Positions 3,271 to 21,949 of a stretch of DNA of 26,272 bases are shown here, one piece after another (positions within the stretch are counted from its first letter, which is position 1; each line of letters begins with the position of its first letter). This stretch comes from a virus. The notes under the pieces are model-generated. The model did not search any database, was not told the DNA's origin, and worked only from the letters and a program-made list of their open reading frames with translations. Made by a program: the position numbers and the translations under genes. The DNA lies in the IMG/VR virus record IMGVR_UViG_3300024518_002138, positions 1 through 26,272 of that record; one strand, written 5' to 3'.

Positions 3271-3681
3271 TTAATTTATTTTTTTTATTATTTCATATGA
3301 AGGATCTTTGTCAACTAACCAATTTAATTTTTTATGGATATTTATCAAAGATTTATTTCTACCTATTGAGAACATATATTTTTTATTATTATTTTTACAA
3401 AATATTTCAGCTGAAGAAACTAAAGTTTCTATTGCTTTTTTTTTATCTTTTTCTTTGTATTCAGGATTTGATACAATCCATTCTAATAAAACAGCAGTTG
3501 AGTTTGTAAAATACAAAAACCCAGCTACAATAGGAATATTATTTTTTTCTACCATTAATCCACTAGTAGCATTACCCGGTAAAAAATCTTGTGCAGGAGT
3601 ATTCCATTTAGGCCAAGATTCCCACCAAGATACTAATGTATCCCAATCATTTTCTGTAAGTTTACGAATGTTGAATTTCAT
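3271..3681 (-). CDS. GNAT-family N-acetyltransferase-like protein (136 aa)
   Basis: The small protein has a GNAT-like layout: an N-terminal beta strand and helix (FNIRKLTENDWDTLVSWW, residues 3-20), a central beta pair GLMVEKNNIPIVAGFLYFT (41-59), then VLLEWIVSNPEYK (64-76). It ends with a helix and strand holding YMFSIGRNKSLINIHKKLNW (102-121), the usual C-terminal helix of the fold. GNAT enzymes transfer an acetyl group from acetyl-CoA to an amine; the acceptor cannot be told here. The canonical Q/RxxGxG/A acetyl-CoA loop is not obvious, so activity is uncertain. Similar proteins occur inside virion modules of marine phages (recollection). It sits between the muzzle-type genes and the cargo genes, so a virion modification role is possible but unproven. 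The leader is AAAATTAAATTAA. Confidence 0.62.
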   Translation of the reverse strand: MKFNIRKLTENDWDTLVSWWESWPKWNTPAQDFLPGNATSGLMVEKNNIPIVAGFLYFTNSTAVLLEWIVSNPEYKEKDKKKAIETLVSSAEIFCKNNNKKYMFSIGRNKSLINIHKKLNWLVDKDPSYEIIKKIN

Positions 3682-3737: not shown

Positions 3738-5219
3738 TTAATATGCGGATTCGACATAATCCGTGGAAGCTGCAAATAATTCTTTCATTCCTCCTGGATC
3801 TGTTAATGTATCAGTAGATATTTTAACTGTTGCATAATAACCTTTAATACCTGTCATTTTATCACCCCAGATAACTTCTCCTGGAGCCGCTACACTATTA
3901 TTAACTAAATTAGCCATATATTTATTTTCTTTTCTATCAAATCCAGCTCTATTAATAGGTGGTATTAAAGCCGTGGTATTTTGTGTAACGGGACTATTGT
4001 TTAAATTAACATATTGATTTCCATAATTGTCATATGCACCTTCATTATAGCTATAAATAGAAGTAATTGTATCGCTGGTATTAGTTGTGGCATATCCTTC
4101 AAAATCTGTATTAACTGCCCCTATACCTGTTAAATCAGAAACAAAACTATTTACTTCCCATCCATTACTTCCTTCATAATTTATTGTTTTAAAAACTTTA
4201 GAGGTACTTACACTAGGATTAAATACAAATTCAACAGAAGCATCGTTTTGTACTCCATAAAAATTACATCTCGGTTGAGTTGAAATATAATGTTGATATA
4301 AACTAGCGCTGTCATTTGCATTAGGAGTTGAAGGGCCAGTAGTATAAAATTTATTCTTTAAACTAAGCATCATGCCGGGTTTATACGAATATAAACTTGT
4401 CCAACCTTGTACAGTTTCATCAAAAGATAATGTTTTATATGGTACAGTAGAAGATTCTGGTTGAATAGATAAAACATATTGTTTATTATATATATCCCAT
4501 CCCCCGGTTAATTTACCTTCTCCCATAGTTCCAAATTGATCTCTAAAAAAATCAATCATACCATAATTTGATATCTCAGTAAGACCATCTTGTGATAATC
4601 TCATTACTGCATTTCTATCTTTATCAGTAAAATATTTTCTTCTACCATAAACTGCAAAACTTTCAGGATTTTTACTAATACCAAAATTACCAACATAAGC
4701 TTGTACTTGACCTATAACGTTAGGACCAGAAGTAACAGTTGCATTACCTTCAGCAGAATAAATAGCATCTTTATCAATTAAAGCTCTACTTACTTTTTTC
4801 TCTTGAAAAATAATTAAATTGGTATCTTCCGCATATAGTCTTTGTATACTTCCGTTTGCTGGATCAACACTCTTTATTATATCTTCTCCCACTGAAAATA
4901 CATTAGTGTCATTAATACCAGTTCTAGCATTAAATATACCCGAATAAATCATTGAGTTAATTCTAATAGAAGATTGAGGATTATCTTCTACTAAAAAAGC
5001 TTTAACCCCTTGTCCTACATATGTATTATTATATCCTCCTCTAATTCTAGCTTCTTCTATAGCCCAATCTTGTTCGTTATCAGGGTTATTAGTTATAGCA
5101 GGGTATGTAAGATCTCCCTTAGATCCATTCCAAGCTGCCGGAGCTGGATTGGTTCCATCATTTAAAGTCTTTCTTAATATGAAACTATTAAAAAATTTTA
5201 CTTCAATTGTTGCTCCCAT
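3738..5219 (-). CDS. Tail stabilization/muzzle-related structural protein (493 aa), possible C-terminal part of a split muzzle
   Basis: The protein is beta-rich, Asn/Thr/Tyr-rich and low in Cys, with no enzyme motif. Residues ~193-222 (GRRKYFTDKDRNAVMRLS followed by DGLTEISNYGM) and the C-terminal KMTGIKGYYATVKISTD segment are patterns I associate with the C-terminal half of the large 'stabilization' proteins of crAss-like phages. In other phages these patterns may be on the same chain as the start found in the 1833-aa upstream gene. Here they are on a separate gene 34 nt downstream. The start ATG at 5219 follows an A/T-rich leader with no Shine-Dalgarno site. It probably forms part of the tail muzzle or a ring together with the 1833-aa protein. 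The family link is inference. Confidence 0.62.
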   Translation of the reverse strand: MGATIEVKFFNSFILRKTLNDGTNPAPAAWNGSKGDLTYPAITNNPDNEQDWAIEEARIRGGYNNTYVGQGVKAFLVEDNPQSSIRINSMIYSGIFNARTGINDTNVFSVGEDIIKSVDPANGSIQRLYAEDTNLIIFQEKKVSRALIDKDAIYSAEGNATVTSGPNVIGQVQAYVGNFGISKNPESFAVYGRRKYFTDKDRNAVMRLSQDGLTEISNYGMIDFFRDQFGTMGEGKLTGGWDIYNKQYVLSIQPESSTVPYKTLSFDETVQGWTSLYSYKPGMMLSLKNKFYTTGPSTPNANDSASLYQHYISTQPRCNFYGVQNDASVEFVFNPSVSTSKVFKTINYEGSNGWEVNSFVSDLTGIGAVNTDFEGYATTNTSDTITSIYSYNEGAYDNYGNQYVNLNNSPVTQNTTALIPPINRAGFDRKENKYMANLVNNSVAAPGEVIWGDKMTGIKGYYATVKISTDTLTDPGGMKELFAASTDYVESAY

Positions 5220-5253
5220 AATTTATAATTGCATATTTATTTATATTATTACC

Positions 5254-8200
5254 CTATTGAACACACGGTGCTCCGTTAAATGTACCTTCTATAGTCCACC
5301 AATAATTTTTAAATGCAGAAGAACCACCTACTAAACTAGGCCCATCTATACGAATAAAAACTTGTCCACCTAGAGAAGATTCATTTATTAACCTTGCTGT
5401 GCCTCCTGATAAATTAGCACTAGCTATAATTTCATAACATGAAGGTTCTTTTACCGTCATATTCCCTACAGAAGCCATTGTAGTAGCTGACCCATCAGCA
5501 GGCGCACTATTTGTTAGTCTATCCCAAAGTCCTTGTAGATTACAAGTACCATCCAAAATATCGGGCGTAAACAGTGAAGAAAAACTAGCCCCAACAATTT
5601 TAATCCAATTACTTCCACCCACCACAGCAAGAGATCCAAATCTATATGAATTAGCCGGTGAAGTAGTACAATCATTTGCATTATTTCCTCCTGTATTAGG
5701 ATCTATATTTCCAACACAAGGTTCCGCTGTTCTAATTATCTTTTTACCTAAATTATCAAATTGAGCAGTCCATCTACTATTTATTTGGGTCATCTGTTGA
5801 CCAATAATAGTTGTAGATCCACCAGGACAACTAGGACAAGTCCAAATTGGTGGGCCATTTCTTGTAGAGCTGTTTTCATTACCGTACTTAACGTTTAATT
5901 TACCTGAGTTCACGCCTGTATATCCATACCATTTGTCAACCCCTCCAGGAGACCACGCACTAGTTAATTGAGGATCATCATAAAATTGAGATACATATTT
6001 AAAACCCCATTCCCTAGCATAAACAGTTTGATCTATTCCTGCGCTAGCAGCTTCTTCTCTACTGTCTTGAGCCGCTGTAACTCTATAAGCAAACGAAGCC
6101 GGTGGCGTCATATTAGATCCACTTCCGTTATAATAATTACTAGAAAGCTGAGTAGGATGATAAAAATCACCAAAACTTAAATAAACTCTTTGGTTCTGTT
6201 GTGCTTCTGTATATAAGTTATAAGGAGCTTCCGGAATAGAACCTGATCCAATTCTAAGCGTTGGTATACGAGGATTGGTTATAACGGTAGAACCTCTAGG
6301 GGAAATATTATTTCCATATGGATATCTTGTAATTAATCTATATTCTCCAAATTTATCTAGGGCATCAGTTGGCGCATTACCACTCGGATCTCTATAAGCT
6401 TGATTTCTCCCTATCACAAATAATTTTCTTCCTGTAGAAATAAGTTGCGGATTTCCTGCAGCTTCTATTGCGTCCATCCAAGATTCAAATGAATCAGCTT
6501 TAGCTGGATTTGGAGCACTTTCATTACTTCCTTCTTGAGTTATAGCAGCACTTAATTTATCTTTTATTCCTGTAGAATAAAAAGCAGTAGGAGGATCAGA
6601 GGCCAATGAACTTCCGCCAAAAATTACTGAACTACCTGTAGATGTTCTCCAATAAGTATTAGCTTGAGCCCCTCCAAATTTTATAACATTACCTTCTATA
6701 TCAGTAGCGTCTTCCCAAGTAAAACTAGAATTTTCTCTATATTGTAAATATGTAGGCCATATAACTCCAGGTTGATCTACAGGAATTCCTCCATAATTTC
6801 CTAAATCATAATCAATTAAAATATAAGCACTTCCCCCAGGTTGAGCTATTGTACCCGGCGTGATACCTTCTGGACTAGCTATAGGACCTGTAGTAGTGTT
6901 ATCTGGTCTTCCGAGTGTTACCGCAGTTCCTAAACCAGAATTAGAATCACTCATAGAGATATTCATATTTCTATTAGAGTTAACCCAACTCCATCCACTT
7001 TCCGCGGATGCACTATTATAACTAGGTAAATTACTACCCACGTCTAATCCACCAACAGGCTTTCTATTGATAGGTATAGAATTTATATCACTAGTAACGG
7101 GATTAGTACTGGGATTAGCCCAATAAAAACCAGAAGATTCAGAAGCCTGATTAATACACATGTTCTTAACACTGCCAAAACTATCATTTAATGCAAACGT
7201 TTTATATCCTAAATTTCCGGTTACATCCGGTGCGCATGTACCAATTGGATCTCCTCCTGCTCCACCACTGTTACTTATAGTAGTATCTACTGTACCCGCG
7301 TCTGTGAGAGCTATTGTTAAGGCAACTGGAGTAGTTAAAGCATTAGAAGGATCTGTTACAACGCCAGTAGTAGAATCTATAATTAATTCAGGTATTCCAT
7401 TGTCTGGATCTAAGGGATCTTGAGAGGTAATACTCCAACTTAAATCTTCTTGATTTTTACTATTATTTTGACTTCCATTAATTCCTTCAAAACTATATAC
7501 AGGTGAAACACCTGGCTCTACAACAATCCCATCTGAGGGGCATATTATAGAAGGTGCAACATTTAATAATTTTTCAGTTAAAGCTATTTGTGTTATAATA
7601 CCTTGTTGAGTACCAGCATCATTGTTTTGAACATTAAAATTAAATGTAAATGAATCTTCTATATATGAATTAGGACCATAATAAAAGAATGTGTTATTAG
7701 AAATTGATATTTTATAAGTATCAGGAGTTCCACTACCCGCAGTTCTAGTTAAGGTGAATTTACTTGTAACATCTTCACCATTACCATTTACTACCCAAAA
7801 TCCTGAAGTTAAATCAATTTCACTGTCCATAACAGCAACTTTTACACCACTGGGATCTTCAGTATAAGGAAAAAATGGAACAGATGTATATGTTCCATTA
7901 GAATAACTAGCAGTTATAAAATCTCCTGGAGTTACATCTTCTGCAAGGTTAAATGTCCATTTACTATTTTGAATACTTAAATGATCTCCAGTTGTAAAAT
8001 TTTTAATACCTCCGCTTCCAGCTTTGATTGCTTCATTTAATTCTGCAATAGTACCTGTAGAAGATGTTTCCCAATATATATCTATTTTAGATTCTACGGG
8101 TTCAGTTTCATAAACCGACAACCAAGTATTTACTAGTGTTGTGTCTGAAGCTGGTGCTATAGAACCAATTTCATTTCCACTTAATGCTATTCTAGCCATA

Positions 8201-10755
8201 GAGGGATTAGAAATTGTTTGATATATAGATCCGTATTTTACATTAGTAGTATTATCAAATAAACTATTTTGTTCTGATATAGTGGAAACTGTATCTGAAA
8301 GAGCAATTCTTGTTGCTGCATTAACTGGATCAAATTGATAATTGTTAATAGGTTGGGCAATTTGCCCTGGGGCAACTCTACCAAATAACTGTACAGAGCT
8401 TCTAAATTGTTTTTGCTCTGGTCCTACCTCTGTTAAATCTCTAGGAACTTTATTTATATTATCATTTAATAAAGTAATATAAGAAACGCTTTGTGCTACA
8501 TCTGGATCAGCAGCAACAGGAGGGTAGAAATTCATTATCCCAGGTAGATAAACATTATAATATTCTTGTTCTGTTTGCTTAACCACTATTTTGTAAGAGT
8601 ACCATCCTAACGGATTATATTCTGTAACTGTAGAATCTCCATTATATAAACCAGGCCAACCTGTAGTTAAGTTGTGTGGGACATTTTCTTTTATAGGTGT
8701 ATTAAATAATACTTTTATAGAATCTCCTAACCATTTCTGTATTAAATTTTGAGTCTTAGTTGCGCTCGACACTTTATTATAAGGAAAATATATAGTATCA
8801 CCAACTAAAGTTAAATCATCATCACCTGTTGCTTGCGTACTAACTGATGATAAAATAGTAGTAGAACTTCTACCATATCGATCGGATAAAACAACACCTA
8901 TCTGATAATTTCTATTCTGCTTTACAGTGTGCATCGGGTATTCTCGAGATACTGTTCTTTCTATAGGTCTAGGAATTGTAGGATCATCAGCAGCAAATTC
9001 TTCATATTTATCCGATACAGCTACATTATAATCTAATGTTTCAGGTGGTGTATGTTTATTTTGAAAATTACCATAAACAAGTCTATTACTAATTATTTCT
9101 TGAGTAAATGCTCTAACTGGAGCTTTATCATATACTCTAGTAATTTCACTATTTGGAAGAGTTTTATATGGTTTATTTCCTTGATAATTATATTCTATAG
9201 TGGTTTCGGTATCAAATCTTTCATATCCCTGTTCTCCTACTCTAGGAATTGTATCCACAACTCTAATAGCTAATCCATCTGATTCTTTATATAGAATTTC
9301 TATTTCAGCTATTTTTAATTCATTAAATAAATTTTTTGCTTCTATTCCATTATTATCTTTATCTAAAGGTAAAGGAATTTGTAAAAATATATTATTAACT
9401 TTATTTTCCATAAATCCAACTACAGTACTTCGATAAGTAGCTTGCTCATCTGTTGTCATACTCACAGGTGTAGTTTCACCTAAAAAATAACCATCTTGTT
9501 TAGGTATAAAAGCAGCTTGAGTGAATGGTGCCATTATAGAATAATTACCTCCTTCAAATTTAAATCTATAACTAAATCTAACAAATTTATCTTCTAAAAA
9601 ATCAGGATCTCCATTGAATTTTGGGTTATAATTTGGATTAGTTGTAAGCCCGGGATAATCTTCATCATAATCACCTCCTGGATTCATAGGAGAACTAGCA
9701 TTCTCCATACTTGTAACCCAATTATCATTTCCAAGACTACCTAAAGTTATTGGGTTTAAATTTTGATTAAAATAAATAATAGTACCAGGCGCTATATCTT
9801 GAGCTAAGTTAACTGGGGTTTCTACTCCAGGTAAAGCTGTTCTATCACATAAAGCTATCTCATTTCCATTAGAAAAACTTTGTAAAGCTGTATTTACGGG
9901 AATAGGAGCGGGTGATATTGCTGCTCCAGTAGCGTCTACAGCTGTAACTAATGACCCTATTAATGTTTTTTCAATATCTAATTCTTTTGCTAAACCAAAT
10001 CTATCAGCTGCCTCTAATAAAATTGCGTTTTGACCGGCTTTGTTTTTTATATTTGCAGGGTCTACAACTACAACTGCGGAACCTCCATTTGGCCATACAG
10101 GAACAATATTGTTATTCCAAGAAAAAGTGCTACTTACAGTTGGGTCTACAACAAAAGCTCCTTGTCTTCGTTGATAAAGTTCTATAGGTTGAAAAGGTGC
10201 ATATGTAGCTACAGTAATTTGATCCTCTGAAATATAATAATCAGGTGAAAAAGTAATAGCACTTTGTACATTTATTTTTCGTGGTTGATTTCTGTTATCT
10301 GTCCAGAATAGAATTCCCTCTAATAAATTAATAGATGTAACAGGATGAGTGGTAGAAAAATTTAAAAAAGATCCAGTAGCTAAGATAGTTGATTCTCTAC
10401 TAGCTGTATTATATAAATATATATAATTATTAGCTGAAGTAGAATAATTAAGCAATTGGACGTTGTAATCCCCTGAAGCTGTTTCTGTATAATCAGTTAA
10501 AAATATATAAATATTATTATTAACCTCATCTGTATATAAACCAATAGTAGTTAAATCACAATTACATCCACTTTTAGTTTTTAGATCTACTAATTCAGTA
10601 TTACCTAAAACATTTTCTAACGCTCCAACGTCGGCACCCTCTGATTTACTTACTTGTATATTAAACCCTTCACGATATTCTCCTCGAGGAAGCAATCTTG
10701 CATCGAGGTCTTTATTCATTTTAGACTTAATAAAAGAATTTTTAGCTTCTGCCAT
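5254..10755 (-). CDS. Giant tail stabilization / muzzle-type protein (1833 aa)
   Basis: This is the largest gene in the window. It starts AEAKNSFIKSKMNKDLDARLL, then PRGEYREGFNIQVSKSEG and DVGALENVLGN, the hallmark opening of the stabilization/muzzle proteins of crAss-like podoviruses as I remember them. Residues ~535-650 (VRAFTQEIISNRLVYGNFQN, VVLSDRYGRSS) and ~740-920 (NPLGWYSYKIVVKQTEQEYY, PRDLTEVGPEQKQFRSSVQL, VYETEPVESKIDIYWETSS) belong to the conserved body. Residues beyond ~930 look different: a candidate Ig/cadherin-like beta domain (~1065-1170, beginning VAPSIICPSDG), long Ser/Gly/Asn-rich stretches, a CPSCPGG motif near ~1650 and a C-terminal beta segment ending GAPCVQ. Such variable C-terminal parts often contact host or fibre. 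It lies 5 nt after the 407-aa ring-type gene. No Shine-Dalgarno site. Confidence 0.75.
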   Translation of the reverse strand: MAEAKNSFIKSKMNKDLDARLLPRGEYREGFNIQVSKSEGADVGALENVLGNTELVDLKTKSGCNCDLTTIGLYTDEVNNNIYIFLTDYTETASGDYNVQLLNYSTSANNYIYLYNTASRESTILATGSFLNFSTTHPVTSINLLEGILFWTDNRNQPRKINVQSAITFSPDYYISEDQITVATYAPFQPIELYQRRQGAFVVDPTVSSTFSWNNNIVPVWPNGGSAVVVVDPANIKNKAGQNAILLEAADRFGLAKELDIEKTLIGSLVTAVDATGAAISPAPIPVNTALQSFSNGNEIALCDRTALPGVETPVNLAQDIAPGTIIYFNQNLNPITLGSLGNDNWVTSMENASSPMNPGGDYDEDYPGLTTNPNYNPKFNGDPDFLEDKFVRFSYRFKFEGGNYSIMAPFTQAAFIPKQDGYFLGETTPVSMTTDEQATYRSTVVGFMENKVNNIFLQIPLPLDKDNNGIEAKNLFNELKIAEIEILYKESDGLAIRVVDTIPRVGEQGYERFDTETTIEYNYQGNKPYKTLPNSEITRVYDKAPVRAFTQEIISNRLVYGNFQNKHTPPETLDYNVAVSDKYEEFAADDPTIPRPIERTVSREYPMHTVKQNRNYQIGVVLSDRYGRSSTTILSSVSTQATGDDDLTLVGDTIYFPYNKVSSATKTQNLIQKWLGDSIKVLFNTPIKENVPHNLTTGWPGLYNGDSTVTEYNPLGWYSYKIVVKQTEQEYYNVYLPGIMNFYPPVAADPDVAQSVSYITLLNDNINKVPRDLTEVGPEQKQFRSSVQLFGRVAPGQIAQPINNYQFDPVNAATRIALSDTVSTISEQNSLFDNTTNVKYGSIYQTISNPSMARIALSGNEIGSIAPASDTTLVNTWLSVYETEPVESKIDIYWETSSTGTIAELNEAIKAGSGGIKNFTTGDHLSIQNSKWTFNLAEDVTPGDFITASYSNGTYTSVPFFPYTEDPSGVKVAVMDSEIDLTSGFWVVNGNGEDVTSKFTLTRTAGSGTPDTYKISISNNTFFYYGPNSYIEDSFTFNFNVQNNDAGTQQGIITQIALTEKLLNVAPSIICPSDGIVVEPGVSPVYSFEGINGSQNNSKNQEDLSWSITSQDPLDPDNGIPELIIDSTTGVVTDPSNALTTPVALTIALTDAGTVDTTISNSGGAGGDPIGTCAPDVTGNLGYKTFALNDSFGSVKNMCINQASESSGFYWANPSTNPVTSDINSIPINRKPVGGLDVGSNLPSYNSASAESGWSWVNSNRNMNISMSDSNSGLGTAVTLGRPDNTTTGPIASPEGITPGTIAQPGGSAYILIDYDLGNYGGIPVDQPGVIWPTYLQYRENSSFTWEDATDIEGNVIKFGGAQANTYWRTSTGSSVIFGGSSLASDPPTAFYSTGIKDKLSAAITQEGSNESAPNPAKADSFESWMDAIEAAGNPQLISTGRKLFVIGRNQAYRDPSGNAPTDALDKFGEYRLITRYPYGNNISPRGSTVITNPRIPTLRIGSGSIPEAPYNLYTEAQQNQRVYLSFGDFYHPTQLSSNYYNGSGSNMTPPASFAYRVTAAQDSREEAASAGIDQTVYAREWGFKYVSQFYDDPQLTSAWSPGGVDKWYGYTGVNSGKLNVKYGNENSSTRNGPPIWTCPSCPGGSTTIIGQQMTQINSRWTAQFDNLGKKIIRTAEPCVGNIDPNTGGNNANDCTTSPANSYRFGSLAVVGGSNWIKIVGASFSSLFTPDILDGTCNLQGLWDRLTNSAPADGSATTMASVGNMTVKEPSCYEIIASANLSGGTARLINESSLGGQVFIRIDGPSLVGGSSAFKNYWWTIEGTFNGAPCVQ

Positions 10756-10760
10756 TTATA

Positions 10761-11984
10761 TTAATTTTTAAGCCATTTAGATTTACCTCTCATAATCTGA
10801 ACAAACTCATTAGATTTTATGTTAGATAATCTTATTTTTGCGTTGCGTAATTTAGCACTTTTTTCTCTTCTTAATCGTTGAACTACATATTCTGGTTGAT
10901 TTATTCGACTAGCTAAAATAGCATGACTTAGATAAGCATAAACTGCTTCTTCAGCTAATTTAGGAACTTTCATATCTTTTTCATATCCTAAACCATCAGA
11001 TATATATTCTAAAACTATTATTTTATCTTTTAAATCACTTGAAAACCCAAACGTTCCATTTCTTTCATTAATAGTAAACCAACCATTAATTTGAGAAGTT
11101 TCAGGTTGCATACCATATCTTTGACCATAACCATAAAACCAATTACCATACCAACCATATAATCCATCGGCTATTAATCTTCCTGTTATATCATCTCTTA
11201 TCTCTTGTAATAATTCTGTATTTTGACTATCCCAACGTTCTTCTGTAATAGATGTACCGGTTAAATTTTGACCTAAATTATCTTGAGTAGGAATACCTTC
11301 TGAATCTTGAATAGGTTTAGTATAAGGGTTTGTTGTTAATGTTGTCGGATAAATTATATGTGTTATACCCACGTCATCAACCCATGAAAGATTTACGTAA
11401 TTTACGTAATCTTGAGGTATTGGTACACTTAAATGATAAGGAATAGTTAGTTCTTGAGACTTAATACTTTTTAGTGTATCATAGCTAAATTCTTGTAAAG
11501 CTCTTTTAGTGTGAAAAATAATATCTGTTTTTTTAACACTAGGAATCAATTTCCCTTCTCCTACATAGGCAACTAAAAAATTGTTAACAAGATCTTCTAC
11601 TTTTATATATGAATAGCTGTTATAATTTTCTTGTGTAACCTTTCCATATGCATTTTTATCTCCAAATTGCCCACCAGTATCTGTTAATAATTGAATAACT
11701 ATATATGTACCAGTTGATTGTGCGGGTAAAGTAAAAATGTTATTTAATACACTATAAGTAGTTGTATATTCAGTGAAAGTACCTGGATTACCCGTTAAAC
11801 TAGTATAAAGTCTAAAATTATTTGTATTATAATTTTCCGATGCTGGATCATAACTTCCAAAAGTTATATCTGTATTAAAAGTAGCTGTAAAAGTAGTTTG
11901 ATCCGCTGTTGCCACAAATATTTGAGCTCCTGCATAATACTGTGAATTTGTTTCGGTAATTAATCCTCCATTAGGTTGTCCCAT
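10761..11984 (-). CDS. Tail-tubular/ring-type connector protein (407 aa)
   Basis: The ~130 N-terminal residues are beta-rich (ATADQTTFTATFNTDITFG and following). A helical and beta body follows with KLIPSVKKTDIIFHTKRALQ around residues 145-165, and LSVPIPQDYVNYVNLSWVDD around 190-210. This 'helix, then IP.DYVNYV.LSWVD' arrangement is a signature I associate with a ring/tail-tubular protein of crAss-like podoviruses that joins the portal to the tail. The C-terminus is basic and helical (YVVQRLRREKSAKLRNAKIR). It follows the 258-aa gene by 6 nt and precedes the muzzle gene by 5 nt, matching the expected order portal, capsid, rings, muzzle. Which ring protein it is cannot be decided from the sequence alone. 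Confidence 0.68.
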   Translation of the reverse strand: MGQPNGGLITETNSQYYAGAQIFVATADQTTFTATFNTDITFGSYDPASENYNTNNFRLYTSLTGNPGTFTEYTTTYSVLNNIFTLPAQSTGTYIVIQLLTDTGGQFGDKNAYGKVTQENYNSYSYIKVEDLVNNFLVAYVGEGKLIPSVKKTDIIFHTKRALQEFSYDTLKSIKSQELTIPYHLSVPIPQDYVNYVNLSWVDDVGITHIIYPTTLTTNPYTKPIQDSEGIPTQDNLGQNLTGTSITEERWDSQNTELLQEIRDDITGRLIADGLYGWYGNWFYGYGQRYGMQPETSQINGWFTINERNGTFGFSSDLKDKIIVLEYISDGLGYEKDMKVPKLAEEAVYAYLSHAILASRINQPEYVVQRLRREKSAKLRNAKIRLSNIKSNEFVQIMRGKSKWLKN

Positions 11985-18919: not shown

Positions 18920-21142
18920 CTAATTTAGTATTTTTGAATTAACCCCTTTGTTATCATATTTTTTAAAACCTAAAGGTACTGTTGTTATTTTTCTATCTGC
19001 AATTGGTTTATATCTATTTTTATTACAAGCCATAATAGCTAAACCAGAACTTATTGAGGCATCATGTAATGTTCTATTATTAATATTAAATTTAGCCCAA
19101 TCTTCTAATGTTTTTTGAAAATACATATCTCCATAATTATCACCATTGTAACCTATAAAATTTTCTATATAATCCTCAATAGCCGCGGCATGCGCTTGTT
19201 TTATATCTTCACTTGAATTAGGTATTCCACCTATTTCTCTTTCTGTTACAGATAATTTATTATAAATTTTATCAGGTCTATTCATCGAATATCCTCTGTA
19301 TCCTCTTCGTTTAAGATAATATAATAATCTAGGTTTATTATTTTCTGCTAGTATAGGCATACCATAAAAAACTAAAGCCATTAATACTTCTTCAAAAAAT
19401 ATTTCAGCAGTTTGTGGTCGTGCTATATATTCTAAAAAAAATGTATTAGGAGGAACATCCTCCATTGTGAATTTAGTTAAACCATGTAAAGAACCTTTTG
19501 AACCTCTACCATCTACTGTTCCTGAAATATCATATGGATCACATCCAAATGATCCACAATCTGAATTTGCGGGGTATTTAATACCATTTTTAACTAAATA
19601 TCTATTTTGTAAATTAATTGGAGGAACCCAAGAGATAAAGAATCTTCCATTATTATTAGGTACAAACAATACTCTAGTATCTTTAATCCCATCTTCCCAT
19701 TGAAAATTACCTTGAGTAATAACATTTGTATTTCTTAAATCCTCATTATAATCAATTTGTTCGTAAATTTTTGTTAAATTAAATAAAGATTCTTTAGTTT
19801 CATCTCTAAAAGCGTGTTTTTCAGTTCTAGGAAATTGACGATAAAATTCATTTAAACTATCTTGATCATTCTTTAATCCTTCGACTTCATTCTCCCAATG
19901 GGAAATAACTCCGATTTCAATTTGTGATCCATCAATCCCAGCGACGGCTTTTTTTGGAGTTTCGAATACAGGTATTCCATAAGTATTAAGGTACCCTTCG
20001 TAGTTCCATTCCATAGGTATGAACAAACTATATAATCCTGAATTAGTCTGTCCGTTGCGGTTTCTTTTTGTAACATCTGATGCATCATATAATTTTTTAA
20101 AATTATTTCCTCCTTTATCTAATGCATTAGAGGTAGATCCCATCATACATTTTCCTACTATTCTACTACCTAATCTTAATGTTGTTTTCGTGACCCTCCA
20201 GTTGTTAAGGATGTTGTCGGGCCTCTCCCATTTCCCCGATTCATCGTGGGCAAGGAGTTGTAATTTCTCCCCATCATACGAGTTGTCCCCGGTGTTCTTC
20301 CAGTCGATCGTTGTGTCCAATCCTTGTATCTCTTCAACTTTGGTATTCTCATCCAATTTTTTTCTGGTAAGTTTCGAGGCAGGGACTCTGTAGGCAAGCT
20401 CTGTCTTGGGCCTGTCCATACCGTCTTGTATCGGTTTGAAGAAAAATGGGTAGTTAACTGATATTGGTACCACCTTATCTGTAAACATCTTCTTCGCATC
20501 TGCTCCAGTTTTAGATAATATCCCATATCTAGAGTCGCTAGAGATGGTTGCTTGATGTACCAATTCCGATGACGCCATGAAGGAGAAACCAGACCGTCTA
20601 TTCTTAAGGTAGCACATTCCATAACATCTATTGTCCACTTTACAGGCTTCCCAGAAAATGAAGAATAATCTATTGGATTCCCTAAATTCTGCTGACCCAA
20701 CATCAATCTTGGTCCACTGCAGGTACATATAATGAGAACCAGTGATATAAATAGGGTTACCTTTATTATAAAACCAAAAACCTTCTTCACGTCTTTTAAA
20801 TTCTTCATCAATATAATCATACCATTTATTTTTAAAATCAAGAGAACGATCATTCCAATCAAAAACTGTTTTTAGTCTAGATAATTCTTTTGGATAACTA
20901 AAAACTTCCCAATATTGATTGTCCTTATTATTATCTCTTTTATATACTATTTTTTCTGGTGGTAAAGCTATTTTTAAACCTTGAATTTCATATATTTCCC
21001 CTATTTCCCCACTTTTGCTAATAACTATAACATCATGTTCTTTATCATAACCTTGTTTCCATTTTTTATATCTATTATTTCTTTTTATTATTTTAGATTT
21101 AATATGGTCAGGTAAAATTTTGTATAAAGTTTGTGTATACAT
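18920..21142 (-). CDS. terL: Terminase large subunit (740 aa)
   Basis: This is the ATPase and nuclease that pumps DNA into the capsid and cuts it. The ATPase domain has a viral deviant Walker A, KNRRSGFS (residues 180-187), a Walker B with catalytic acid, LQLLAHDESG (294-303, D300 and E301), and a coupling motif around KCMMGSTSNA (331-340). The C-terminal RNase H-like nuclease carries likely metal ligands D535 (FGCDPYD), E600 (PILAEN) and D694 (TLHDASISSGLA). Length and motif order are complete. It starts with ATG overlapping the stop of the 90-aa gene by one base (TAATG) and abuts the portal gene. Roughly residues 138-318 are encoded by DNA much richer in G+C than the rest of the gene, suggesting recombination. 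Confidence 0.9.
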   Translation of the reverse strand: MYTQTLYKILPDHIKSKIIKRNNRYKKWKQGYDKEHDVIVISKSGEIGEIYEIQGLKIALPPEKIVYKRDNNKDNQYWEVFSYPKELSRLKTVFDWNDRSLDFKNKWYDYIDEEFKRREEGFWFYNKGNPIYITGSHYMYLQWTKIDVGSAEFRESNRLFFIFWEACKVDNRCYGMCYLKNRRSGFSFMASSELVHQATISSDSRYGILSKTGADAKKMFTDKVVPISVNYPFFFKPIQDGMDRPKTELAYRVPASKLTRKKLDENTKVEEIQGLDTTIDWKNTGDNSYDGEKLQLLAHDESGKWERPDNILNNWRVTKTTLRLGSRIVGKCMMGSTSNALDKGGNNFKKLYDASDVTKRNRNGQTNSGLYSLFIPMEWNYEGYLNTYGIPVFETPKKAVAGIDGSQIEIGVISHWENEVEGLKNDQDSLNEFYRQFPRTEKHAFRDETKESLFNLTKIYEQIDYNEDLRNTNVITQGNFQWEDGIKDTRVLFVPNNNGRFFISWVPPINLQNRYLVKNGIKYPANSDCGSFGCDPYDISGTVDGRGSKGSLHGLTKFTMEDVPPNTFFLEYIARPQTAEIFFEEVLMALVFYGMPILAENNKPRLLYYLKRRGYRGYSMNRPDKIYNKLSVTEREIGGIPNSSEDIKQAHAAAIEDYIENFIGYNGDNYGDMYFQKTLEDWAKFNINNRTLHDASISSGLAIMACNKNRYKPIADRKITTVPLGFKKYDNKGVNSKILN
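20190..20730 (-). other. GC-richer block within the terminase ATPase region
   Basis: Counts on four sampled 60-base lines inside the block give about 52, 47, 45 and 40% G+C (20221-20280, 20281-20340, 20401-20460 and 20581-20640). A line outside it (19321-19380) gives about 27%. The reading frame of the terminase is intact across the block and its Walker motifs lie inside it. Boundaries are approximate. The change shows at silent positions as well, so protein conservation alone does not explain it. Gene conversion or recombination with a higher-GC relative is the simplest reading; a chimeric assembly is the alternative. Confidence 0.7.
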
Positions 21143-21414
21143 TATTTAGATCTTCCTTCTGCGAACCCTTTAAAGTTATTTCCGCGATTTTCTTCTTTAA
21201 TTTCCTTTAACATATTTTCTTCCTCTTCTATACGAGTAAGTATTTCAAAGGCATCAAAAATAGCTAATTTCTTAGTGGCAGCTGCATTTTTTAATCTATC
21301 TGCAGAAACATCGTCTTCTGAATCTACAATTTTTTCTTTAGCAACTTTAATTAGTTCTTCAACTGCTTTTTGCCCAGCTTGGATTATACTCTGTTTGGTT
21401 TGTTTTGTGTTCAT
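21142..21414 (-). CDS. Small acidic/helical protein upstream of the terminase; candidate small terminase subunit (90 aa)
   Basis: The protein is all-helical in appearance: an N-terminal Gln/Lys-rich helix, then DVSADRLKNAAATKKLAIFD (residues 35-54), AFEILTRIEEEENMLKEIK and a basic tail FKGFAEGRSK. I remember near-identical segments next to marine phage terminases, always without a named function. Its position immediately before the large terminase, with TAATG overlap and likely translational coupling, makes it a candidate small terminase subunit. No DNA-binding helix-turn-helix is evident, and 90 residues is short for that role. Its start lies 56 nt inside the preceding GroES-like gene, an unusually long overlap; no later in-frame start removes it without losing conserved-looking residues. 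Confidence 0.7.
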   Translation of the reverse strand: MNTKQTKQSIIQAGQKAVEELIKVAKEKIVDSEDDVSADRLKNAAATKKLAIFDAFEILTRIEEEENMLKEIKEENRGNNFKGFAEGRSK

Positions 21415-21949
21415 ATTTAATTACAATATCATTTGATTCCATACAATATAAAAGTTCATTATTAATTATAAACTCAAACTCTCGCATGGGTTTAAACCCT
21501 ACTATATCACCTGGAGTGATTTCAAGCGTTTCTAATGAACTATTACCATATTTTAGTATACCTTTATTCTTTATTATTTTTTTACCTTCTAATAACGGTT
21601 TTACAAAACAATAATTTTCATGAGTATTCCACTTATTATTTTTATAATACATATAAATTTGAGAAGGAAAAGCAAAATATAAATCATCTTTAAAATATTT
21701 ACTACTATTTACAGACTTACCTTGCATATTATAATATCTTCTAAATAAATTATGATGAACTATAATTTTATCACCTTTTATTATATTCGTTTTATAATTA
21801 AGTGGAATTGATACAACTTCAGCTTCTCTATTTATAAATTTATGATTAGATATACTAGAATTTATTATTAATTCTTTATTTTCAATATTAATCGTATTTT
21901 TATATCTTTCACCAATAGGTGTTATAATAAATTGATATAAACTATTCAT
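21359..21949 (-). CDS. GroES-like co-chaperonin candidate (196 aa)
   Basis: Two segments look like the GroES beta-barrel. Residues ~41-75 have REAEVVSIPL, NIIKGDKIIVHHNLFRR, the 'xGxVVxVP...I..GD.VIV.H' pattern. Residues ~140-180 have LEITPGDIVGFKP and EFEFIINNELLYCMESNDIV, the last two strands of the fold. The length is twice that of a cellular GroES, and a ~60-residue insertion lies between the halves. Phage co-chaperonins such as T4 gp31 help host GroEL fold the capsid protein, which would suit a gene just upstream of the head genes. The start directly abuts the stop of the 76-aa gene (TAA-ATG). Homology is inferred from pattern; the mobile loop is not clear. Confidence 0.5.
   Translation of the reverse strand: MNSLYQFIITPIGERYKNTINIENKELIINSSISNHKFINREAEVVSIPLNYKTNIIKGDKIIVHHNLFRRYYNMQGKSVNSSKYFKDDLYFAFPSQIYMYYKNNKWNTHENYCFVKPLLEGKKIIKNKGILKYGNSSLETLEITPGDIVGFKPMREFEFIINNELLYCMESNDIVIKYEHKTNQTEYNPSWAKSS

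Follow-up and report, generated by a model that had tools for sequence, protein, structure and literature searches.

The muzzle is the gate and the cell-contact end of the crassvirus tail, and its known form, the structure of which has been solved, is a single chain. In a 26,272-base virus sequence from IMG/VR, probably a fragment and here called the window, two adjacent genes appear to share such a protein between them, which raises the question of whether they encode one muzzle in two pieces. A preliminary description of this locus had left two alternatives, namely that the family normally consists of two genes, or that this lineage split the protein while adding a large variable C-terminal region to the first chain. 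As stated there, the two ORFs encode 1833 and 493 amino acids (here chain 1 and chain 2) and are separated by 34 nt; both are located on the minus strand. The motif NKDLD.RLLP.GEYRE is present in the 1833-aa protein, and the patterns YFTDKDRNAVMRLS and MTGIKGYYATVKISTD are present in the 493-aa protein. The two genes are placed in different reading frames, and each has its own start and its own stop codon, TAG for chain 1 and TAA for chain 2.

Table 1. Features of the two-gene muzzle locus and its neighbours in the window.
Feature	Position	Strand	Evidence
Chain 1, 1833 aa: N-terminal part of the muzzle and C-terminal extension	5254..10755	-	ORF, phrog_14478 profile
Chain 2, 493 aa: remaining part of the muzzle	3738..5219	-	ORF, phrog_14478, gp44/phi38:1 profiles, Foldseek
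A/T-rich intergenic leader, 34 nt, with in-frame stops before the chain-2 ATG	5220..5253	-	
Last motif in common with single-chain muzzles, chain 1 residues 882-897 (YETEPVESKIDIYWET region)	8065..8112	-	Motif search and motif HMM
C-terminal extension of chain 1, 936 aa past the last shared motif	5257..8064	-	Motif position
Most variable end of chain 1, residues 1701-1833	5257..5655	-	Identity blocks
Pfam crAss_MUZ_C in chain 2, residues 317-438	3906..4271	-	PF25729, E 4.6e-11, above cut-off
Virion structural protein, 407 aa, immediately upstream; position of the crassvirus ring-protein gene	10761..11984	-	phrog_13977, E 1e-36
Protein of 136 aa immediately downstream of chain 2; slot of phi38:1 gp098	3271..3681	-	phrog_17252, E 7e-31

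Two genes match complementary parts of one muzzle family

HMM searches of the kind that the preliminary description had proposed assign both chains to the crassvirus-type tail muzzle family, represented by phrog_14478 (1474 aa), of which they match complementary parts. The match of chain 1 begins at the N-terminus (E 5e-52, best stretch 2-179), and that of chain 2 covers positions 943-1261 (E 1e-47). Chain 2 also contains the Pfam domain crAss_MUZ_C, with a score of 43.4 bits against a curated cut-off of 27. The scan of chain 1 of the window against Pfam gave no match, and crAss_MUZ was recognized in another one of the 28 chain-1 members scanned. Neither chain had a match to PDB sequences in phmmer searches, and the chain-2 profile matched only two caspases in PDB (E 0.11 and 0.23), so family profiles and fold comparisons were needed.

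Profiles built from 28 chain-1 and 28 chain-2 sequences, including those of the window, matched the muzzle protein gp44 of crAss001 at residues 1-152 (chain 1, E 1e-6) and 1034-1291 (chain 2, E 1e-7). As controls, six other crAss001 proteins gave E-values of 0.09-0.67, and gp44 sequences that had been shuffled (20 in number) gave 0.01-0.88. Against three single-chain muzzles of flavophages, the E-values were 7e-55 for chain 1 and 7e-47 for chain 2. The cultured homologs from phi38:1 (Cellulophaga), elemoF (Flavobacterium) and Gundel (Tenacibaculum), which are placed outside the order Crassvirales in their own records, are colinear with both chains, but are encoded by a single gene of 1324-1493 aa rather than by two. 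In the profile alignment, chain 1 residues 1 to ~820 map to residues 1-495 of the phi38:1 protein, chain 2 maps from residue ~859 to the end of that protein, and chain 2 is well aligned with gp44 from residue ~1003. By content, chain 1 contains the start of the ring-joining/propeller region and an Ig-like and crass-type region, and chain 2 contains the end of the IG2 domain, the later propeller blades and the C-terminal ring-joining domain.

The flanking genes are the same as in phi38:1, where gp098 is the downstream neighbour of the single muzzle gene, and the two genes of the window occupy the slot of that gene, between a ring-type protein and a small structural protein. The order of the 407-aa gene and the muzzle matches that in phi38:1 and that of gp43-gp44 in crAss001, and judging from this position the 407-aa protein would be the ring protein. 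The portal and the terminase match their own PHROGs and are located, like other virion genes, upstream of the two chains. A GroES-type co-chaperonin gene (phrog_13932, 21359-21949), which overlaps a 90-aa ORF (21142-21414), is found upstream of the terminase gene.

Predicted fold and position of the cut

The comparison of predicted structures with the solved tail, also proposed in the preliminary description, succeeded for an intact relative and gave a poor model for chain 2. Modelled alone with AlphaFold, chain 2 reached a pLDDT of 50, which may be due to a shallow alignment, and the top Foldseek matches of this model were 7qol_P and 7qok_A (E 7e-8, TM 0.28). The protein of locus L181, an intact single-chain relative of 1166 aa, was modelled with confidence (pLDDT 85, pTM 0.75), and the best match of its model in PDB was the crAss001 muzzle (Foldseek E 2.4e-38; 7qol_P, Z 33.3 over 728 residues at 4.6 Å). 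WD40 propellers match the same model from residue ~31 to 972. With L181 standing in for the pair of chains in the window, the models thus predict a muzzle fold. The nozzle-type tail proteins of P22, T7 and SU10 have the propeller and ring-joining parts in common with the L181 model (Z 18-24), but they matched as single chains, unlike the two chains of the window. For T7, the passages on structural comparison in PMC10172136 limit the correspondence to the ring-joining and propeller domains.

In the sections of that paper concerned with gp44 (PDB 7qok, 7qol; PMC10172136), the protein is one chain of 1371 aa in which IG2 is inserted in propeller blade 3 and itself has insertions at 453-904 and 940-1012, the latter being its G-H insertion, and the gate loop is located in blade 4. 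It has both family and fold in common with the chains of the window and with L181, and its gene is likewise placed after that of the ring protein. It differs from the muzzle of the window, which is cut at about the second IG2 insertion and has an extension of 936 aa added. The cut, here called site A, lies where the single-chain proteins have a short loop that is flanked by a conserved motif on either side (residues ~690-703 in L181), and the extension of chain 1 occupies the place of this loop. The counterpart in L181 of the YETEPVESKIDIYWET region is FETIP...FFEA at residues 666-681. Placed by eye, site A would correspond to the G-H loop of IG2 near gp44 residue 940; the first of the two motifs was not found in a pattern search of gp44, and the confidence of the profile alignment at residues 952-1002 is 2.9 of 9, which makes this position approximate.

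Muzzles of relatives are cut at three sites

To place the locus in the context of its relatives, we surveyed the best 80 loci from each of three viral-contig scans with domain HMMs, so that the counts given below describe these best loci rather than frequencies in nature. The site was assigned according to where the match to the C-terminal domain ends or begins in the ORFs, and site A was called whenever the N-terminal and C-terminal parts fell in different ORFs. Among these loci, 160 resemble the window (site A), in 12 the cut is close to profile position 260 and the second ORF measures 243-264 aa (site B), in 35 the cut is around position 384-420 and the second ORF measures 107-177 aa (site C), and 21 have a single chain, while four further loci, two of which are crassviruses, had no N-terminal part in view. 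These numbers include at least four contigs that are present under two locus names (L162/L221, L160/L227, L109/L229, L163/L235) and phi38:1, which makes up two of the single-chain loci (L081, L166), and the class is unsafe for one site-B and three site-C loci in which the chain-1 ORF runs off the contig. In the L181 model, site B is located late in the propeller, between the strands 912-920 and 926-934, and site C is located after the propeller, in the C-terminal domain. Cutting of the muzzle is recurrent and occurs at three sites, which the preliminary description had not foreseen.

The detached end was found as a downstream ORF in nine of the 12 site-B loci and in 27 of the 35 site-C loci. 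In the other 11, the ORFs run off the contig (L191, L204, L232, L240), at most 304 nt of the contig is left (L184, L193, L245), or no second piece was found in the remaining 0.8-2.6 kb (L196, L228, L230, L237). Frame errors may explain L216 (634 and 1470 aa) and the chain-1 fragments in L072, L169 and L233. A split at yet another place in the Maribacter phage Panino (L084:8022-8133), annotated as two genes, was not counted, since the frame changes within ~110 nt and a frameshift or a sequencing error is the likelier cause.

A two-chain muzzle like that of the window is also present in a cultured phage, as gp114 and gp115 of Cellulophaga phage phi18:3, although here the cut is at site B, ~260 profile positions later than in the window. 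The HMM match of gp114 (1612 aa) extends to profile position 260, and that of gp115 (241 aa) covers positions 265-470. According to the record notes, both annotations rest on experimental MS/MS proteomics, and this support concerns the site-B relative alone. The same pair is annotated by similarity in phi13:2 and phi46:3. The protein gp115 (L255:7352-8077) is phrog_18548, which is listed as having unknown function; it matches residues 930-1165 at the end of the intact L181 protein and is the detached C-terminal part of the muzzle. No cultured phage with a cut at site A was found among eight regions inspected of 87 matching phage records. The muzzle and its fold were already known, and it is the two-chain form and its recurrence at sites B and C that appear to be new; a literature search among open-licence papers found no title or passage on a split or two-polypeptide muzzle, propeller or nozzle.

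Extensions and inserted genes at the cut

At site A, chain 1 continues for 260-991 aa past the last shared motif in 156 of the 160 loci and for 55 aa in L188 (157 measured). At the same place, the next motif follows after 8-28 aa in the single chains (13 of 21 loci measured, elemoF not being among them), 22-40 aa in the site-B chains (7 of 12 measured) and 8-162 aa in the site-C chains (27 of 35 measured). The extension is also the part in which chain 1 varies the most. Compared to four close relatives, the identity of chain 1 of the window declines from 84% at residues 1-100 to 26% at residues 1701-1800, and it is 26-29% over residues 1701-1833, as opposed to 76-90% in the blocks of chain 2, which is the more conserved of the two chains. 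Based on its variability and position, the extension is probably a module for contact with the host surface. None of the 28 chain-1 members scanned contained an adhesin domain. As regards a diversity-generating element behind the variable end, the direct repeats in a repeat scan of the window do not exceed 46 nt.

Chain 1 also extends beyond its own cut at site B, by 194-966 aa in the 12 loci (one of which runs off the contig), and at site C by 142-1211 aa in 13 of the 35 loci (two off the contig). In another 19 site-C loci, chain 1 ends 19-58 aa after the cut. For the 14 of these in which the second piece was found, it is preceded by 957 nt or more (up to 3.4 kb) of other sequence, while in ten site-C loci with an extension of at least 247 aa and a second piece, the distance is at most 28 nt in seven and 293-1195 nt in three. 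Extensions and inserted genes thus look like alternatives at site C. Homologs of the L236 extension are encoded as proteins of their own between the two halves in L207 (E 8e-20), L176 (E 1e-14) and L199 (E 6e-12). Two of four such in-between proteins scanned contain a Cadherin or Big_9 domain above the cut-off, and the other two have weak matches. Of three chain-1 proteins scanned, the site-B proteins of L189 and L198 carry a He_PIG Ig-like domain in their extensions, and the site-C protein of L202 contains crAss_MUZ_C alone. In phage ctfjg026, a gene annotated as a putative glycosidase is located between the halves at site B. Similar ORFs of ~300 aa (MKYICAQPA.QYFGWQ) are located between the halves in one site-B and one site-C phage (L206:10509-11408, L225:12702-13607), as if a cassette had moved between the cut sites.

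The same data bear on another explanation, in which the two genes arose by ordinary gene fission without consequence. A stop with a new start would have been tolerated, and neutral drift at the free end would have produced an extension that has no function in host contact. Drift would produce the strong divergence seen between the extensions of close relatives, and the short closed ends of chain 1 in the 19 site-C loci indicate that a long extension is not required by the cut. However, drift does not readily explain why the extensions have stayed open over such lengths in 156 of the 160 site-A loci, or why blocks over residues 1001-1600 retain 25-39% identity (23-27 relatives). Nor does it account for the other sequence that precedes the second piece in the 14 short-ended site-C loci, for the homology between the L236 extension and separate proteins, or for the Ig-like and cadherin-like domains in extensions and in-between proteins. 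We consider drift alone unlikely, but it should be kept in mind.

Phylogeny and the direction of change

A phylogeny was inferred from 154 non-redundant sequences, from which those more than 80% (site A) or 93% (other classes) identical to a retained sequence had been removed. In this tree, 89 of the 91 site-A sequences form one clade with an SH-aLRT support of 100, and the remaining two, L188 and L216 with its possible frame error, fall in the site-C group. A more careful phylogeny of 54 selected sequences, rooted with Gundel by choice, recovered 12 of 13 site-A sequences as one clade with 100/100 support, and again L188 was placed outside. The sister group consists of the site-C sequences, six single-chain sequences and L188. 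The site-B sequences are interleaved with single chains, and well supported branches force at least three changes. Cutting, or cutting together with some fusion back, has thus happened several times. The trees do not distinguish a cut from a fusion, and at sites B and C the change may have gone in either direction.

It could be argued that the two-gene state is ancestral and that the single-chain phages represent later fusions, as the site-B, site-C and single-chain sequences are interleaved in the trees and counts of changes are blind to gain versus loss. Against this, all 13 crassvirus muzzles counted are single ORFs of 1338-2031 aa (14 regions inspected of 75 records that match gp44), and the cultured phi38:1, elemoF and Gundel have single ORFs as well. 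The 14th region, from a Bohxovirus, contains only small ORFs at the muzzle and was left out of the count; presumably this phage reads stop codons differently. When the larger tree is rooted with two crassviruses, the single-chain Gundel branches off first, although this root has a support of only 67 and very long branches, and is weak. Moreover, the three cuts are made at different places and one ancestral cut cannot account for all of them, and each fusion back would also require the removal of an extension. We find an ancestral split improbable, and the single chain is likely, although not proven, to be the older state.

Of the two alternatives in the preliminary description, the second agrees best with these results, in that the lineage has a two-gene muzzle in which the first chain has a large variable C-terminal region. 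A two-gene arrangement in most relatives, which that description would have taken as a refutation, is what the near relatives show, each of the 80 having an ORF of its own for chain 2, whereas the wider family has single ORFs. As the split is common to the whole clade, two genes are the norm among the near relatives.

A conserved gene boundary

The 80 near relatives are the best 80 loci of an IMG/VR scan and include a contig that begins inside chain 1 (L007), one with chain 1 in two ORFs (L072) and three with chain-2 ORFs that run off the contig (L050, L057, L069). Chain 2 is its own ORF also in nine of nine contigs from GTDB, a separate collection, and the N-terminal part was found upstream in six of these. 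In five of the nine (L250, L251, L252, L253, L254), chain 2 is longer by 80-200 aa, which are added around profile position 237-263, close to the site-B cut. Of 159 site-A loci (L216 being omitted from both counts), 152 have a gap of 3-60 nt between the chains, and in 154 the frame of chain 2 contains a stop codon that lies either inside the gap or where chain 1 terminates. In the 80 relatives and the window, all three relative frames of the two chains occur (22, 31 and 28 loci), and chain 1 ends with TAA in 65 loci, TAG in 14 and TGA in two, with L072 measured from its first chain-1 fragment. The cut is thus a true gene boundary, which is kept across a large clade. Codon reassignment was rejected, as the 22 listed genes of the window end with TAA (16), TAG (4) and TGA (2). 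No single polypeptide covers the muzzle from the ring-joining start to the end, as in the canonical one-chain form, and with two cistrons and no sign of read-through the muzzle of the window is classed as a two-chain form. Four site-A loci (L107, L122, L141, L144) have an extra ORF between the chains; small ORFs in two of these (L107:9610-9999, L122:9495-9974) have a YKLYLVGG stretch in common.

The motif AAGTRATAATA occurs 111 times in the site-A loci, of which 78 occurrences are just before the ATG of chain 2, two are at other gene starts and 31 are elsewhere, and the window has a diverged form of it. This leader may act as a signal for the translation or expression of chain 2. The conserved start of chain 2, with a leader that is rare at other genes, would also agree with a 493-aa protein that had become an independent tail protein and no longer completes the muzzle fold. 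This is very improbable, however, given that chain 2 matches the parts that follow the cut in the single-chain relatives and is more conserved than chain 1. The adjacent and ordered genes, nearly always at most 60 nt apart, might suggest a mechanism that joins the products again, such as a programmed frameshift, read-through, the splicing of an intron or a split intein. This is hardly credible in view of the use of all three frames and all three stop codons, the stops in the frame of chain 2, the 34-nt gap that is too small for an intron, and the result that no intein family in Pfam matched either chain of the window (E up to 1) or the 28 chain-1 members (E up to 0.01).

Implications for the muzzle and its probable host contact

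We consider it probable that a single muzzle subunit of the crassvirus type is encoded by the two genes in the form of two co-folding polypeptides, and that the cut frees a variable end for contact with the host, where the co-folding and the host contact are what we infer. Chain 1 would contribute the first blades, the first Ig domain, most of the second Ig domain and the distal domain. Chain 2, with the end of IG2, the later blades including the gate blade, and the ring-joining domain, would fold onto it non-covalently, such that each of the six muzzle subunits per tail would be a 1:1 heterodimer. The cut would leave the C-terminus of chain 1 free to project near the tail tip, where its extension of 260-990 aa, with a very variable end, would probably touch the host. 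Relatives seem to have made similar use of the loops at sites B and C, and site C also houses whole genes between the halves. The gate loop is located in blade 4, which would be part of chain 2, so that a variable outer chain would be coupled to a conserved gate chain.

A broader reading, for and against which we see an even balance, is that the muzzles of short-tailed phages of Bacteroidota have been cut repeatedly at three loops, the G-H loop of the Ig domain, a late hairpin of the propeller and the ring-joining domain, and thereby provided with exchangeable surface-binding modules and a non-covalent gate latch of two chains. The modules would be carried either on a C-terminus of the first chain that the cut has set free or by whole genes for which the cut makes room. 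The conserved second chain might then snap the gated propeller shut, and the distal part of the latch would be an exchangeable host-range cassette, which some phages could have as a chain-1 extension and others as a gene of its own.

These results suggest that a large clade of uncultured phages builds the muzzle from two chains. With annotation by best hits, there is a risk that the second chain is labelled as unknown or as a separate structural protein. The cut muzzle accounts for phrog_18548, and the assembly of the gate could be tested in the cultured phi18:3. More generally, the cut sites reveal loops that tolerate both a break and an added domain, and they hint at where the host-contact parts of the muzzle may be located.
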